Shown here: piece by piece, positions 4,366 through 10,085 of the stretch
How positions within the stretch are numbered: the stretch's first letter is position 1
How the letters are laid out: the number at the start of each line of letters is the position of its first letter
Assembly: GCA_947311765.1 (NCBI GenBank)
Contig: CAMZLS010000030.1
Location: forward strand, 1-33,552
Reading direction: 5' to 3'
Source: an uncultured Helicobacteraceae bacterium
GTDB lineage: Bacteria > Campylobacterota > Campylobacteria > Campylobacterales > Sulfurimonadaceae
Length of the DNA: 33,552 nt
Made by a program: the position numbers and the translations under genes
Notes under the pieces: model-generated
Databases searched by the model: none
Told to the model about the DNA's origin: nothing
What the model saw: the letters and a program-made list of their open reading frames with translations, nothing else

Positions 4366-5055
4366 TTAAAATTTTGAAAGATTTTCAGTCACTGAAACTA
4401 TTTTTGCATCTTTCATCTCAATAATCGTATCAGCAATAGCAGAAACATTCATATCATGTGTTGCTATAAGAATACATTTTGCACTCTGTTTGAGATATTT
4501 TTGCAACTTAGCTAAGATAAGTTGAGCCGTTTTTGAATCTACATTTCCTGTTGGTTCATCTGCTAAGATAACTTTAGGATTGTTTACCAAGGCTCTTGCT
4601 ATCGCTCCACGCTGTCGTTCACCACCAGAAACTTCTGAAGCAAAGGAGTCTAAACGAAACTCTAAACCCATCTCTTTTAAAAGGGAGCTTGCTCTCTCTT
4701 TTCTCTGTATATTTGAGATACTTTTATCTGATAAAAGAGCTGATTGTACATTTTCACTCAGCGTTAGAACTGGAATAAGATGATGAAACTGAAATACATA
4801 TCCAATAAAATCACGTCTAAATAAATCTAAGTTTCCAACTTCATCTAAAGCTTTTCCATAATAAAGAACGCTTCCTTTCGTAGGGACATCCAAGCCTCCT
4901 ATAAGATTTAAAAGCGTACTTTTCCCGCATCCAGAAGCTCCTGTAAGAGCATATATTTTCCCCTCTTGTAATGTTAAATTTATATCTTTTAAGGCACTAA
5001 TGAGACCATTATCATACTCTTTGTAGAGATTTTTCACTTCTATAATATTACTCAT
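4366..5055 (-). CDS. ABC transporter ATP-binding protein, LolD/MacB type
   Basis: Cytoplasmic ATPase of a type VII (MacB/LolCDE-like) ABC system. With the start at MSNIIEVKNL it has 229 residues: Walker A GASGCGKST (39-47), Q-loop Gln89, signature VSGGERQ (142-148), Walker B VILADE (162-167) and switch His200. This short single-domain form is typical of LolD and of separate MacB-type ATPases. The start was chosen because the ATG lies in ATGAGTAA, overlapping the permease stop by 8 bases, a coupling arrangement; the open frame extends six codons further. It is the third gene after the lipoprotein and permease. Whether it moves lipoproteins, a peptide or a small molecule cannot be told from the sequence. 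Confidence 0.9.
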   Translation of the reverse strand: MSNIIEVKNLYKEYDNGLISALKDINLTLQEGKIYALTGASGCGKSTLLNLIGGLDVPTKGSVLYYGKALDEVGNLDLFRRDFIGYVFQFHHLIPVLTLSENVQSALLSDKSISNIQRKERASSLLKEMGLEFRLDSFASEVSGGERQRGAIARALVNNPKVILADEPTGNVDSKTAQLILAKLQKYLKQSAKCILIATHDMNVSAIADTIIEMKDAKIVSVTENLSKF

Positions 5056-6175
5056 GACGCAATGCTTTAGCAATCTGAATTTTTCTTATGTAAAGTATTG
5101 GGAATATAATACTAAAAATAGCCGTAACTAAAGAGATTAACATTACATTTATAAAAATATTCATATCTAAAGATGAGGGGAAATACATAGACATTTCAGG
5201 AAAATTATTTTGAAGCATCTGCATAATTGGGTAAGATAAAAAATAACCAATAAAACCTCCCGAGTACGCCAACAAAAGAGCCTCAGTTAAAAACACACCC
5301 ATAATCATCATTTTAGACCAACCTATTGCGCTTAATATCCCTATCTCTTTTACTCGCTCACTCAGTGCCATAATAAAAATATTTAACAACACTGCAACTG
5401 CAATTATGAGTGTTACAACAGAGACAATTTTTGAAAAATAAAAGACACTTTTAATAGGCCCTAAATGATTAGGTAACTGCATACTCTCTACAGCGCGAAG
5501 GTCTGAAAAATTTTTATTGATTTGCTCTAATACCTCTTGTGTCTTTGTGCTGTCTTTTAGTTTAAGAAGAAGAAGGCTAATTTTCTCTTTTTTATCCATA
5601 AGATATTGAGCACTTTGCAAATCTGTAATAATTCCTGTGTTTAAAAAATTGAGCCAACTAGAAAAAATTCCAACTATTTTATAGGATTTCCCTTTTGAAA
5701 GTTTTAAAGTGTCATTTACATGTAAGTTAAATATTTTGGACATCTTTTCCCCTATTACCACCTCATTTTTAGCTTTTGTAATCTTACGCCCTTTTATAAT
5801 ATTAAATCCTAAACGAATAGAAAAGGTATTAAAATTTGATACTCCAAGTAAAAATGCAGGTGAATCTCCCCTAATCCTTGTACGATTAATAAGAAGTGCA
5901 TCATAAGTATCAACTAGATCAATTTTAATCAGTGCGTCTGTAATATTTTTATCAATAATGGAAGTTATAGGCGAAGAAGCATACTTAGCCTGAACGGCTA
6001 TATCTATACTTTGATCTCCAAGAAGAGTTGAAATTTGCTTAGTAAAAGAGTGGCTTATAGTTGCAAGAGAACTGTAAAGTAAAATAATCAAACTGACTGA
6101 AAAAAGTGCAAAAAAAGACCGTAAGCGAGTACGAAAAATATTTCGTACCGCGTACATTACAATAATCCTAAACAT
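5048..6175 (-). CDS. ABC transporter permease, FtsX/MacB/LolE type
   Basis: A 375-residue membrane protein with the MacB topology: one N-terminal span (about 22-42), a 190-residue extracytoplasmic domain, and three C-terminal spans (about 240-265, 285-310 and 340-365). RNIFRTRLRSFF and ALSERVKEIGILSAIGWSK are characteristic of FtsX-domain permeases. It follows the lipoprotein gene by 14 bases and overlaps the ATPase gene. An internal ATG at residue 7 (6155-6157) has AGGA at better spacing and may be the true start. A TTACATGTAA palindrome lies inside, encoding Leu-His-Val of NLHVND. Confidence 0.88.
   Translation of the reverse strand: MFRIIVMYAVRNIFRTRLRSFFALFSVSLIILLYSSLATISHSFTKQISTLLGDQSIDIAVQAKYASSPITSIIDKNITDALIKIDLVDTYDALLINRTRIRGDSPAFLLGVSNFNTFSIRLGFNIIKGRKITKAKNEVVIGEKMSKIFNLHVNDTLKLSKGKSYKIVGIFSSWLNFLNTGIITDLQSAQYLMDKKEKISLLLLKLKDSTKTQEVLEQINKNFSDLRAVESMQLPNHLGPIKSVFYFSKIVSVVTLIIAVAVLLNIFIMALSERVKEIGILSAIGWSKMMIMGVFLTEALLLAYSGGFIGYFLSYPIMQMLQNNFPEMSMYFPSSLDMNIFINVMLISLVTAIFSIIFPILYIRKIQIAKALRHE
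5716..5725. repeat. TTACATGTAA palindrome, copy 2 (in permease gene)
   Basis: Exact copy inside the FtsX-type permease gene. In the gene's frame it reads Leu-His-Val (context NLHVND). Confidence 0.9.
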
Positions 6176-6190
6176 TTAGTTACTTACTAG

Positions 6191-7135
6191 CTATAATGTT
6201 GTAGATACCGTTGAACAATCCATTGTGCCTAACCTACTGCCACCTGATGTAACATTGAAAACACCTTCTGTAGTACCACTTGTGATGAGAGCTTTATTCC
6301 CTCCTGCGCCTGAAATAGTAATGGTACCATTTTTACTATTTAAATCGCCACTACTACTAGAGATAGTAACAACTCCCAAATCTGGATCAGCATAAGAAGC
6401 CGTGAATGTTGTTGATGAACCATTCATATTTACGCTTACATTTCTGAAACTGTAGCTTTCATGAGAAGCATTATCTTTTATACTAACAGAACCGATACTT
6501 AAAGTTTTTGTACCCTTACTAGATGTGGCATCTGTTAAGCCATCACTTGAGTAAAATTTACCATTAGCAACATTCAAGACAACATCAACATTTTTCCCTG
6601 TATTAGGATTTTGAGAAACCACATGCAGTGGAGTTGGTGTTGAAAAATTTATTGTCATGGCTGAACCACTACTACTTGTTGATAAATCTAGTTTACCATC
6701 TATTGTACTTCTTGTTCCATTATCTGTTGTACTACAATAATTATTAAAAATATAAGAACCACTTTTTTCATCAGCACTACTATTAAGTGTCATAGTACCA
6801 CCACAAGCACCCTGAACAACTTTACTTTCTCGTAGTGCTACGCGTAAATTACTACTATAAATACCTCTATCTTTTAAGGCAGTTGATAATTCCATAACAA
6901 CTGTTTTTATAGGAAAGTAACTATCTACAGATCTTAGTTGCGCTGCGTTTTGAGATTGTGTGTATGTGCATCCTACCTCATCTGAAACACTCTTAACAAA
7001 TTTATTGACATTTGTTGGACTGAGTTGTGCTGTTGGAGTACCATCGCTACTGCCACCTCCTCCCCCACAACCTACTAACAAACCTATTGACAAACTCGTT
7101 GCCACCAAACTAATTATAAAGTTTGAACTTTTCAT
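6191..7135 (-). CDS. Putative secreted lipoprotein, unrecognised family
   Basis: A 314-residue protein beginning MKSSNFIISL with a hydrophobic signal and lipobox LLVGC, giving lipidated Cys23, followed by a Gly5-Ser-Ser linker. The mature part is rich in Ser, Thr, Gly and Asn, looks beta-rich, and has four further cysteines (in GCTYTQ, GACGG, NNYCST and MDCSTV). I recognise no domain. The start was chosen for AAAGGAGTC at proper spacing upstream of 7135; the frame is open 14 codons further. It is the first gene of the lipoprotein-permease-ATPase operon, so it may be a periplasmic partner or a substrate of that ABC system. That link rests only on position. Confidence 0.75.
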   Translation of the reverse strand: MKSSNFIISLVATSLSIGLLVGCGGGGGSSDGTPTAQLSPTNVNKFVKSVSDEVGCTYTQSQNAAQLRSVDSYFPIKTVVMELSTALKDRGIYSSNLRVALRESKVVQGACGGTMTLNSSADEKSGSYIFNNYCSTTDNGTRSTIDGKLDLSTSSSGSAMTINFSTPTPLHVVSQNPNTGKNVDVVLNVANGKFYSSDGLTDATSSKGTKTLSIGSVSIKDNASHESYSFRNVSVNMNGSSTTFTASYADPDLGVVTISSSSGDLNSKNGTITISGAGGNKALITSGTTEGVFNVTSGGSRLGTMDCSTVSTTL

Positions 7136-7165
7136 AATAGACTCCTTTTCTTGTCTTCTACTAAT

Positions 7166-7171
7166 ACTATA
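7166..7171 (-). promoter_or_regulatory. Possible -10 box for the lipoprotein-ABC operon
   Basis: TATAGT on the minus strand, about 31 bases upstream of the lipoprotein start, in a very AT-rich stretch. No -35 is recognisable. Confidence 0.35.
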
Positions 7172-7248
7172 CATCAAATATAATTAAAAAAAATAATAAT
7201 CTTTATTAAAAAGGTATATTTTTATATATTAATGGGTAAAATCACAAT

Positions 7249-7254
7249 TATAAT
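7249..7254 (+). promoter_or_regulatory. Possible -10 box for the YiiX-like gene
   Basis: TATAAT ending 12 bases before the ATG at 7267. This would give a leader of only about 6 bases. The weak AAGAG at 7256-7260 may or may not be transcribed. Confidence 0.35.
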
Positions 7255-7266
7255 TAAGAGCAATCA

Positions 7267-7508
7267 ATGAGAAAAAAATATTTTTATTTACTTTTACAAC
7301 TATTTTAGCATCTCTACTATATATCTATTATTTTAGTAAAATTGACACTAAAAATAGTTCAAATTTTCATTTTATTGAAAAATTAAAAGATGAAACTTAC
7401 TATTTTCCAGCAAAAAAATTCACTTACTCAAAGAGAATTTATCAGCCTCTTAAACAATTTGACCTTATTTTTGCAGGACATGATATTAACTCTAAAAAGT
7501 TATCTTTA
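7267..7508 (+). other. Out-of-frame 5' part of the YiiX-like gene with slippery A7 tract
   Basis: No gene is open here in one frame, but the region clearly codes. An ATG at 7267 reads MRKK and then meets a stop at 7306-7308. The -1 frame entered at the A7 run (7272-7278) has no stop down to the downstream ORF. It reads IFLFTFTTILASLLYIYYF, a membrane anchor or signal, then a stretch ending FDLIFAGHDINSKKLSLVHHMS, which joins the 7509 ORF without a break. A AAA AAA at 7272-7278, in the ATG frame, is a classic -1 slippery heptamer. The alternatives are a one-base deletion in the tract or a sequencing error. Confidence 0.65.
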
Positions 7509-8207
7509 GTGCATCATATGTCAGCTATTATTCCTGGAAAATACACACATGTACTTGCGTATATTGGTAAGGACGACGGTGGTTATGCCTACGCGATAGA
7601 GATAAACATTGATAAAAATCAAACATTTTCACTAAACCATAAAGGTCTCAATATTGGTGGGAAACTCCATCTTTTTTGTTTAGGAGCTGATTTCAGCACC
7701 ACTTCATGTCCAAATGACACTTATGCTTACGGTATAAAAGCATACGACTATATGTGGGCGAAGAGATTAAATCCAAAATTAAAGAAGCAACTACTAGAAC
7801 ATAAAGGTGAGCTTATTGCAACAATTAAAAAAGACTTAACAAATAGATACCCCTTTAAATTACCTTTTAATTTTAATGCAGAAACATCTCTGAGTAAAAC
7901 ATTGCCTTTTATTGTTGATACTCATCAAAATGGTTCAGATTGCGTCTCATACTTTGTTTCACTATTTGAAAAGGTAGCAAAAATACATTTTGATGATATT
8001 ACGATGAGCTCTTCGGAACTCATCTCTTATTATCTTTATGACCCAATCGGGAAAGAAGCCATCCTTCCTAAAAAATACAATCCAATCACAGATAAAGATA
8101 CTTATATTAAAGACCTGATTGAAAATTTAGGATACACATTTATTGATGAGACAGGCAAAGGGGCATTGCTACACCTGATTTACTTTTTAATAGTTCAAGT
8201 CTGCTAG
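7509..8207 (+). CDS. YiiX/YebB-like permuted papain-fold protein, frame disrupted at both ends
   Basis: The open frame gives 232 residues from a GTG, but the real gene probably spans 7267-8221 (about 318 residues). Visible hallmarks of permuted NlpC/P60 (YiiX-like) cysteine hydrolases are IPGKYTHVLAYIG with the putative catalytic His, and later NGSDCVSYFVSLFEKV with the putative catalytic Cys. The C-terminal end in this frame (LLHLIYFLIVQVC) looks wrong. From the G4 run at 8160-8163, the -1 frame instead reads GIATPDLLFNSSSLLEISN and stops at 8221, resembling the TPDDL...SPL end of YiiX proteins. N-terminally a membrane anchor lies in another frame. Substrate unknown; relatives are thought to act on cell-wall or amide bonds. 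It may be a decayed gene, phase-variable, or affected by homopolymer errors. Confidence 0.65.
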   Translation: MHHMSAIIPGKYTHVLAYIGKDDGGYAYAIEINIDKNQTFSLNHKGLNIGGKLHLFCLGADFSTTSCPNDTYAYGIKAYDYMWAKRLNPKLKKQLLEHKGELIATIKKDLTNRYPFKLPFNFNAETSLSKTLPFIVDTHQNGSDCVSYFVSLFEKVAKIHFDDITMSSSELISYYLYDPIGKEAILPKKYNPITDKDTYIKDLIENLGYTFIDETGKGALLHLIYFLIVQVC

Positions 8208-8824
8208 AAATTAGTAATTAATCTTTCGTGATACTTTCCAAACACACAAATAGCTACAAGCGCGCCCAAAAGTGCAAAAAATATATCTGATTGCGCATCC
8301 CAAATATAGCCCTGTGTACCTAAGAAATTTGAAGCTGGCTCTTTTGAACCAAAATAGATAAGAATTACAACCATAATCCACTCAAGTATCTCCCAAGAAG
8401 CACTCAAAGCAGTTGTAAAGCTAATAGCGAAAAAATCTGCCCATTTATTTGAGTTAAAAATATTTTTTCTAAGAGAGACCTCTTTTGTCAATGAAGTGGT
8501 AATAAAACCTTGAAAGAAATGACCCAATTTATCATAATTATTTCTCTCAAAACCAAAAATATCTTTCGCCCATTCCCCTAATGGTACATAAGAATAACCA
8601 TAATGCGCTCCTATCAACATCAATGAAGCACCTATAAAAATTATTATATAGCTAAATGGAGTTAAGGGAAATTTTTTATATGTTTTTATTAAAATAATTA
8701 AGCCTATGAAAAGAGGAAGCGTTTCTGCTATCCACAGCGCCCTTTCTTTAGCGCCAATAAACGAGACTATAGATGCGAGAGATATGGCAACTAGCAAAAT
8801 AAAAAAATTAGTAATCTTGTACAT
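8204..8824 (-). CDS. DUF2238 (YjdF-like) inner membrane protein
   Basis: A 206-residue polytopic membrane protein with about six spans. It contains the family pattern HYGYSYVPLGEWAKD, then NNYDKLGHFFQGF, SWEILEWI, and LGTQGYIWDAQSDIFFALLGA. I recognise this as DUF2238/YjdF; its function is not established. The start at MYKITNFF was chosen as the usual N-terminus; the frame is open to an ATG at 8893, but that would overlap lnt. It converges on the YiiX-like gene, with overlapping 3' ends, and diverges from lnt with only 40 bases between the starts, so the two promoters must be interleaved. Confidence 0.82.
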   Translation of the reverse strand: MYKITNFFILLVAISLASIVSFIGAKERALWIAETLPLFIGLIILIKTYKKFPLTPFSYIIIFIGASLMLIGAHYGYSYVPLGEWAKDIFGFERNNYDKLGHFFQGFITTSLTKEVSLRKNIFNSNKWADFFAISFTTALSASWEILEWIMVVILIYFGSKEPASNFLGTQGYIWDAQSDIFFALLGALVAICVFGKYHERLITNF

Positions 8825-8851
8825 CTTAAGAAGATGTATCACATGTTTTGT

Positions 8852-8857
8852 TATACT
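8852..8857 (+). promoter_or_regulatory. lnt: Extended -10 box for lnt, probably leaderless
   Basis: TG-T-TATACT is an extended -10 element. Its last base is 7 bases before the lnt ATG at 8865, so transcription should begin at or within a base or two of the start codon. No ribosome binding site is visible. Confidence 0.45.
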
Positions 8858-8864
8858 TTCGGTT

Positions 8865-10085
8865 ATGACTTCTAAAAAAAAATATTCACTCATTTATGAT
8901 GTATCTCTTGCACTCTTTATCGCGGTAAACTTTTCCGCCTTTATCTATTTTGAACATTATGGGCTTACATGTAAAATTATCAATAGTGTAACTGCCTTAG
9001 TTGCTTATGCTTTACTCTTACATGTAAGAGCTCGGGTTATTTTAATTTCAGGTTTTATTATTGGTCTGTTCTGGTTTCATTGGATTGGATATAGCTTTGA
9101 ATATTATCATGTGAGCTATATGATTCCTATAGTTATTATTGGTTTTGGTTTTGTCTATGCACTCTTTTTTGGTGTTTTAGCACTAACGCAAAAAGCTTGG
9201 ATTCGGGCTATTTTACTCTTTGGACTCAGTTTCGTCGAACCTTTTGATTATAACTGGATGGTACTAGAGCTTCCTTTTGTTGAGAGTTATTTTGGAGTTG
9301 CTAAGTGGCAATTTGCACTTATTTTAGTTGCACTTGCATTTTTTCTTACATGTAAACAAAAATGGCGTTATGGGGCTATTATACTTCTCTTGGCCGCTAT
9401 TAACTTTTCCACTGCACAAAAAGCTATGCCTGACTTGAAGATTAAGCTTGTCTCTATGGATATTCCTCAAGAGCTAAAATGGAAACCATTTATGCAAAAT
9501 AAAATCAATAGTTTTAATTTCAAGGCTATTGATACAGCGATAAAAGAGGGCTATGATCTCGTTATTTTACCTGAATCTGCTTTTGCGCTTTTTTTAAATA
9601 TGCATCCTGATTTAGTAAAAATATTAAAAGAAAAATCTATGCATATCAGTATTATTACAGGTGCTCTCTATTATGAAAAGCATAATAACTATAATGTTAC
9701 TTATCTTTTTCAAGATGGTAAAAAAAGCATTGCAAAAAAGATGACTTTAGTACCTTTTGGAGAGTATATACCCCTTCCAAAATTGATACGTGAATATGTC
9801 AATAAAACCTTTTTTGATGGAGCTTCTGATTATATTAGCGCAGATGCACCCACAGACTTTATCATTAAGGGTGTAAAATTTCGCAATGCCATCTGTTATG
9901 AAGCTACCTGTGAAGAGCTTTACAGGGGTGAGCCAAAATATATGATTGCCATAAGCAATAATGCTTGGTTTATGCCCTCTATTGAGCCAACTCTGCAAAA
10001 TCTTTTGATGCGTTACTTTGCTCAAAGACATGCAACTATTATCTTTCATGCTGCAAATGCTGCTGGAACCGCTATAGTTGAGTAG
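8865..10085 (+). CDS. lnt: Apolipoprotein N-acyltransferase
   Basis: Inner-membrane enzyme that adds the third acyl chain to the N-terminal Cys of lipoproteins. Length is 406 residues, shorter than the roughly 510 of E. coli but normal for Campylobacterota. About seven hydrophobic segments occupy residues 10-185, followed by the nitrilase-like domain. The catalytic triad is visible as Glu237 (LPESAF), Lys292 (KKMTLVPFGEY) and Cys344 (ICYEA). The start MTSKKKYSL was chosen over the frame open to 8706, which overlaps yjdF. Three TTACATGTAA copies lie in the membrane part, two encoding LTCK and one LHV. It provides the final maturation step for lipoproteins such as the one at 6191-7135. Confidence 0.93.
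   Translation: MTSKKKYSLIYDVSLALFIAVNFSAFIYFEHYGLTCKIINSVTALVAYALLLHVRARVILISGFIIGLFWFHWIGYSFEYYHVSYMIPIVIIGFGFVYALFFGVLALTQKAWIRAILLFGLSFVEPFDYNWMVLELPFVESYFGVAKWQFALILVALAFFLTCKQKWRYGAIILLLAAINFSTAQKAMPDLKIKLVSMDIPQELKWKPFMQNKINSFNFKAIDTAIKEGYDLVILPESAFALFLNMHPDLVKILKEKSMHISIITGALYYEKHNNYNVTYLFQDGKKSIAKKMTLVPFGEYIPLPKLIREYVNKTFFDGASDYISADAPTDFIIKGVKFRNAICYEATCEELYRGEPKYMIAISNNAWFMPSIEPTLQNLLMRYFAQRHATIIFHAANAAGTAIVE
8965..8974. repeat. TTACATGTAA palindrome, copy 3 (in lnt)
   Basis: Exact copy in lnt, encoding Thr-Cys-Lys of YGLTCKI. Confidence 0.9.
9018..9027. repeat. TTACATGTAA palindrome, copy 4 (in lnt)
   Basis: Exact copy, 53 bases after copy 3 but in the other frame, encoding Leu-His-Val of LLHVRA. 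Flanks give the 12-base form CTTACATGTAAG. Confidence 0.9.
9346..9355. repeat. TTACATGTAA palindrome, copy 5 (in lnt)
   Basis: Exact copy encoding Thr-Cys-Lys of FLTCKQ, at the end of a membrane span of Lnt. Confidence 0.9.

Follow-up and report, generated by a model that had tools for sequence, protein, structure and literature searches.

Described counterparts of the gene and its neighbors

The closest described counterparts of the gene examined here are the YaeF/YiiX permuted papain-like enzymes (PF05708, Peptidase_C92; PDB 2IF6). This family has a conserved catalytic tyrosine, and the pocket of YiiX binds a fatty acid (PMC3142127). The Staphylococcus protein LnsA, a PPNE that participates in lipoprotein N-acylation (PMC7387801), may serve by analogy as a model for a YiiX-like enzyme placed beside lipoprotein machinery. 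The neighboring genes resemble LolCDE, and the damage to the gene resembles that of ordinary pseudogenes in AT-rich bacteria, where an accessory gene loses its frame at poly(A) and sustains a small deletion. We noted no notable difference from these.

The window, meaning the whole stretch of 33,552 nucleotides that we analyzed, is contig C30 of a draft genome of 1.98 Mb in 148 contigs, from an uncultured Campylobacterota bacterium of the family Sulfurimonadaceae. Its YiiX-like gene lies on the forward strand and encodes FDLIF...YTH...E...YPF...DC.SYF, which can be compared with GDIIF...YSH...E...YD...YCSEL in Campylobacterales proteins of PF05708. Three candidate catalytic residues are invariant and occur in the permuted order: H91 (7548..7550), E108 (7599..7601), and the candidate nucleophile C222 (7941..7943), numbered in the frame from 7278. 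Unlike YiiX, the protein is larger, contains insertions and additional conserved cysteines, and carries a C-terminal motif. Pfam and NCBIfam models did not match it, and the PF05708 cut-off was not reached. An hhalign comparison with the Campylobacterales PF05708 proteins was collinear with an E-value of 0.007, but the probability was only 5%. The order of the invariant residues and this faint profile match together suggest a permuted papain-like enzyme. Hence, the label YiiX-like given in the initial annotation finds weak backing in residue order and profile alignment and none in the curated models. The candidate for the conserved tyrosine, Y191, is replaced by Leu or Phe in some of the relatives. 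Two AlphaFold models of the family reached pLDDT values of only 51 and 32. A fold search of the PDB gave no usable match, and searching solved structures by sequence and by profile returned no real one either.

The gene's associated cassette comprises a LolD-type ABC ATPase (4366..5073), an FtsX/MacB/LolCE-type permease (5048..6175), and a lipoprotein (6191..7177), all on the reverse strand, as is a DUF2238 membrane protein (8204..8893) that is convergent with the YiiX-like gene. The ATPase has TIGR02211 LolD as its best match and the permease matches lolCE/FtsX models. In contrast to LolCDE, these scores fall below the curated cut-offs, there is a single permease, and the operon type includes a dedicated lipoprotein and the YiiX-like gene. 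The setting also differs from that of LnsA: the genes nearby encode a Lol-type ABC pair together with a canonical Lnt. Since the operon partners are a lipoprotein and a LolD/LolCE-type ABC pair, the intact gene would probably have acted on lipoprotein acyl chains beside a Lol-type transporter. A more speculative extension, to which we give well under even odds, is that the gene represents an undescribed family of anchored enzymes of the permuted-papain type. Its members would travel in a rare cassette with a lipoprotein and a Lol-like ABC pair and edit lipoprotein acyl chains, and the window would show the gene being lost.

Reading frames of the YiiX-like gene

The main open frame extends from stop to stop over 7254..8207 and has no ATG, GTG, or TTG at its 5' end. 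It contains one stop, its own, whereas the two other frames contain 21 and 38. A hidden Markov model based on a three-periodic Markov codon model and trained on the same genome called 7256-8165 coding in this frame. Given the single stop and the coding call, the YiiX-like frame is a real gene.

Two breaks interrupt it. At the 5' end, as the initial annotation had described, an ATG (7267-7269) leads into a run of seven adenines (A7; 7272..7278) and a dead-end frame of 13 codons, MRKKYFYLLLQLF, that stops at TAG 7306-7308 (7267..7308). The main frame is -1 relative to this ATG. It encodes an N-terminal membrane anchor (7278..7343; helix 2-22 in a structure model) and remains open to its stop, which confirms the continuous -1 frame proposed earlier. 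At the 3' end, the break spans 8136..8163 and includes a run of four guanines (G4; 8160-8163). Past it, a frame starting at 8162 and stopping at 8219-8221 encodes GIATPDLLFNSSSLLEISN (8162..8221), which aligns with the conserved C-terminus of relatives, such as GIPTPDRLFASPSLIDIE in one of them (L003). The suspicion that the true C-terminus lies in another frame past G4 was therefore correct.

Comparison with relatives

We searched genomes of the family, genomes of the order, and GTDB contigs for relatives. A first scan of the genome collection with the window protein alone as query found no match, and a scan with the alignment as query found five loci. The gene is rare: with its own genome included each time, it occurred in 3 of 228 Sulfurimonadaceae genomes and in 4 of 399 genomes sampled across the order. 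Intact or partial relatives were found at L003/L028, L004/L032, L030, L031, L033, and L034, and relics at L029 and L035. In the intact relatives the C-terminus lies in one continuous frame. The comparison with orthologs that had been recommended thus shows both joins to be departures from an intact gene, and the frame in the window is disrupted in the manner of a pseudogene.

We consider a recently broken pseudogene to be the best explanation of the locus, with a probability of roughly 80%. Decay was one of several options raised initially, and it is supported by the intact frames of relatives, by a loss of about 31 nucleotides (nt) at the 3' break, and by an empty site in a congener. The evidence pulling the other way is that about 290 codons are open, the coding score is normal, and the candidate His, Glu, and Cys are kept.

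Substitutions at conserved positions were consistent with weakened constraint. Of 74 sites that are otherwise invariant, the window protein was altered at 10, compared with 16 of 388 in six relatives together (Fisher p = 0.004). Dropping the close pair L033/L034 from the background gave 10 of 74 versus 12 of 256 (p = 0.014). Relative-rate tests against L031 were mostly not significant (p = 0.04 to 0.74). We read this pattern across the alignment as recent relaxation rather than long decay, and retention of the candidate catalytic residues likewise implies that any decay is recent. Taken with the open codons and normal coding score, the weak rate tests mean that the gene was very recently broken or is still used somehow.

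Continued use would most simply take the form of a truncated but working protein that begins at a non-standard start (AUU, AUC, or AUA) and ends in the altered tail ALLHLIYFLIVQVC. Such a protein would need the frame to be open, as it is from 7254, and the candidate catalytic residues to persist, as they do. Against it, relatives conserve the C-terminal motif GI/VPxPxxLFxSPS, and a standard start is missing from just this gene and three fragments out of 538 coding segments, making a working truncated product very improbable. A caspase-like gene fragment with no start lies at a contig end (L009, G000:C5, 1-396).

The 5' break

The initial annotation had singled out the A7 heptamer, in A.AAA.AAA register with the ATG frame, as the most suggestive feature of the gene. 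On one reading, a low level of protein would come from a shift at the heptamer, either programmed -1 frameshifting by the ribosome or slippage during transcription. The register is indeed right, but this AT-rich genome makes such heptamers common: 75 of 169 A7 tracts in its coding DNA share the register, and they are distributed over 58 of 270 genes. A second in-register A7 even occurs in the same gene (7412..7418), with the frame kept across it. The heptamer at 7272 is therefore no more than expected by chance. It is conserved in none of the relatives aligned. RNA structure scores were modest (z = -0.9 and -1.8), and in E. coli A_AAA_AAA is reported to shift far less readily than A_AAA_AAG (PMC5009743). 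The codons at the 3' site, AAA GGG GCA, permit no -1 re-pairing. Programmed frameshifting is accordingly the least probable of the explanations we weighed, and one candidate for the phenomenon can be removed.

The A7 tract codes for Lys-Lys in the n-region of the signal anchor. The neighboring lnt gene has an in-frame A9 (8874-8882) in the corresponding place, its own n-region. Its probable start is ATG 8863 (MTSKKKYSL) rather than ATG 8706, and the longer frame from 8706 overlaps the divergent DUF2238 gene.

Contingency loci are well known in Campylobacterota, and this gene would be one more if slipped-strand replication changed the tract length and so switched expression. The position of A7 directly after an ATG, itself preceded at 6 nt by a plausible ribosome site (AAGAG), fits such phase variation. 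Weighing against this reading, A7 is short, ordinary in this genome, and absent from all relatives, and switching at A7 would leave the 3' end broken. We regard phase variation as improbable, if marginally less so than a working truncated protein.

Because an inverted block of genes ends just upstream, it is possible that the old start was lost with a rearrangement and that ATG 7267 is there by chance. Elsewhere in the genome, an N6-adenine methylase-like remnant (L086, G000:C29, 200-900) has A9 right after its ATG and A8 inside, both out of frame. It resembled a second instance of a poly(A) break close to the start, but we rejected it because the remnant is broken further downstream as well.

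The 3' break

In every relative covering the 3' site, 18 or 19 residues (54-57 nt) separate LGY from GIxTP, compared with 26 nt in the window. At 31 (or 28) nt, the shortfall equals a multiple of three plus one, and the missing segment carries a conserved cysteine in every relative that covers it. A single deletion of about 31 (or 28) nt accounts for both the loss of the segment and the change of frame. The run of four G at this site is absent from all relatives compared. The initial annotation had linked the break to this tract, but a deletion explains it better than a missing G. Comparison with relatives can in this way unmask an apparent homopolymer break as a plain deletion. A second cysteine, invariant among relatives, is His in the window (residue 237), and the substitution may reflect a lost disulfide.

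The remaining alternative is that the gene is intact and that sequencing or assembly dropped one base from each tract. The assembly is a draft, and each break falls at or next to a homopolymer, the setting in which undercalls of one base typically arise. We surveyed 549 kb of the same assembly, containing 538 coding segments. Coding DNA lies on either side of 1,574 of its homopolymers, and the frame changes at only 26 of these, a result that holds mainly for internal breaks and is weak for breaks in the first few codons if another start follows. The doubtful cases among the 26, checked singly, proved to be ordinary gene-gene junctions, and in nearly all the rest a stop and a start lie close together. 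Coding segments also contained 88 A8 and A9 tracts, which likewise speaks against undercalling. Moreover, an undercall at the 3' site leaves the missing conserved cysteine segment unexplained. With other genes of the assembly almost free of frame breaks, base-calling error is unlikely, although we rate it above the other alternatives.

History of the cassette

A recently broken pseudogene also fits the arrangement of the locus. In L030, L031, L033, and L034 the YiiX-like gene directly follows the ATPase, itself after the permease, and the lipoprotein also precedes wherever the contig stretch reaches. As in the window, the gene in L030 converges on a DUF2238-like gene. The window has the lipoprotein-permease-ATPase block on the strand opposite to the YiiX-like gene. 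The only congener compared (G001) has the order SecF-SecD-ATPase-permease-lipoprotein-DUF2238-Lnt followed by cysK, as in the window, but the YiiX-like gene is cleanly absent: only about 30 bp separate the lipoprotein from DUF2238, and no copy was found elsewhere in that genome. Flanking repeats marking an insertion were looked for at the locus and none were found.

In relatives, the gene closes an operon whose earlier members are a lipoprotein, a LolCE/MacB-type permease, and a LolD-type ATPase. Its product there is a periplasmic cysteine enzyme, anchored by lipid or helix and probably of the permuted papain (YiiX-like) type. The window's genus has the three-gene block on the opposite strand, which would have taken the gene from its co-translated operon. 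We infer this order of events, together with the absence of function in the window copy and the role of the ancestor. The copy would then have lost its start frame at or near A7 and, close to its end, about 31 (or 28) nt, removing the cysteine segment and putting the C-terminus out of frame.

Elsewhere the cassette is eroded. In L029 and L035 the permease and ATPase are fused and the YiiX relic has no His segment. In G027 the lipoprotein alone remains, beside a PhoD-like gene that flanks the YiiX-like gene in L003. Together with the absence in the congener, these relics imply that loss has been repeated. As a rare cassette with intact copies elsewhere, it is a possible unclassified lipoprotein-handling system that could merit a look.

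The rare cassette of the window (4366-8893; lipoprotein, permease, ATPase, YiiX-like, and DUF2238 genes) sits between yajC-secD-secF and lnt-cysK, and it occupies different genomic places in other Campylobacterota. The badly decayed cassette of L029 (2345-4938) and L035, in which a deletion fused permease and ATPase, lies beside the S10 ribosomal operon.
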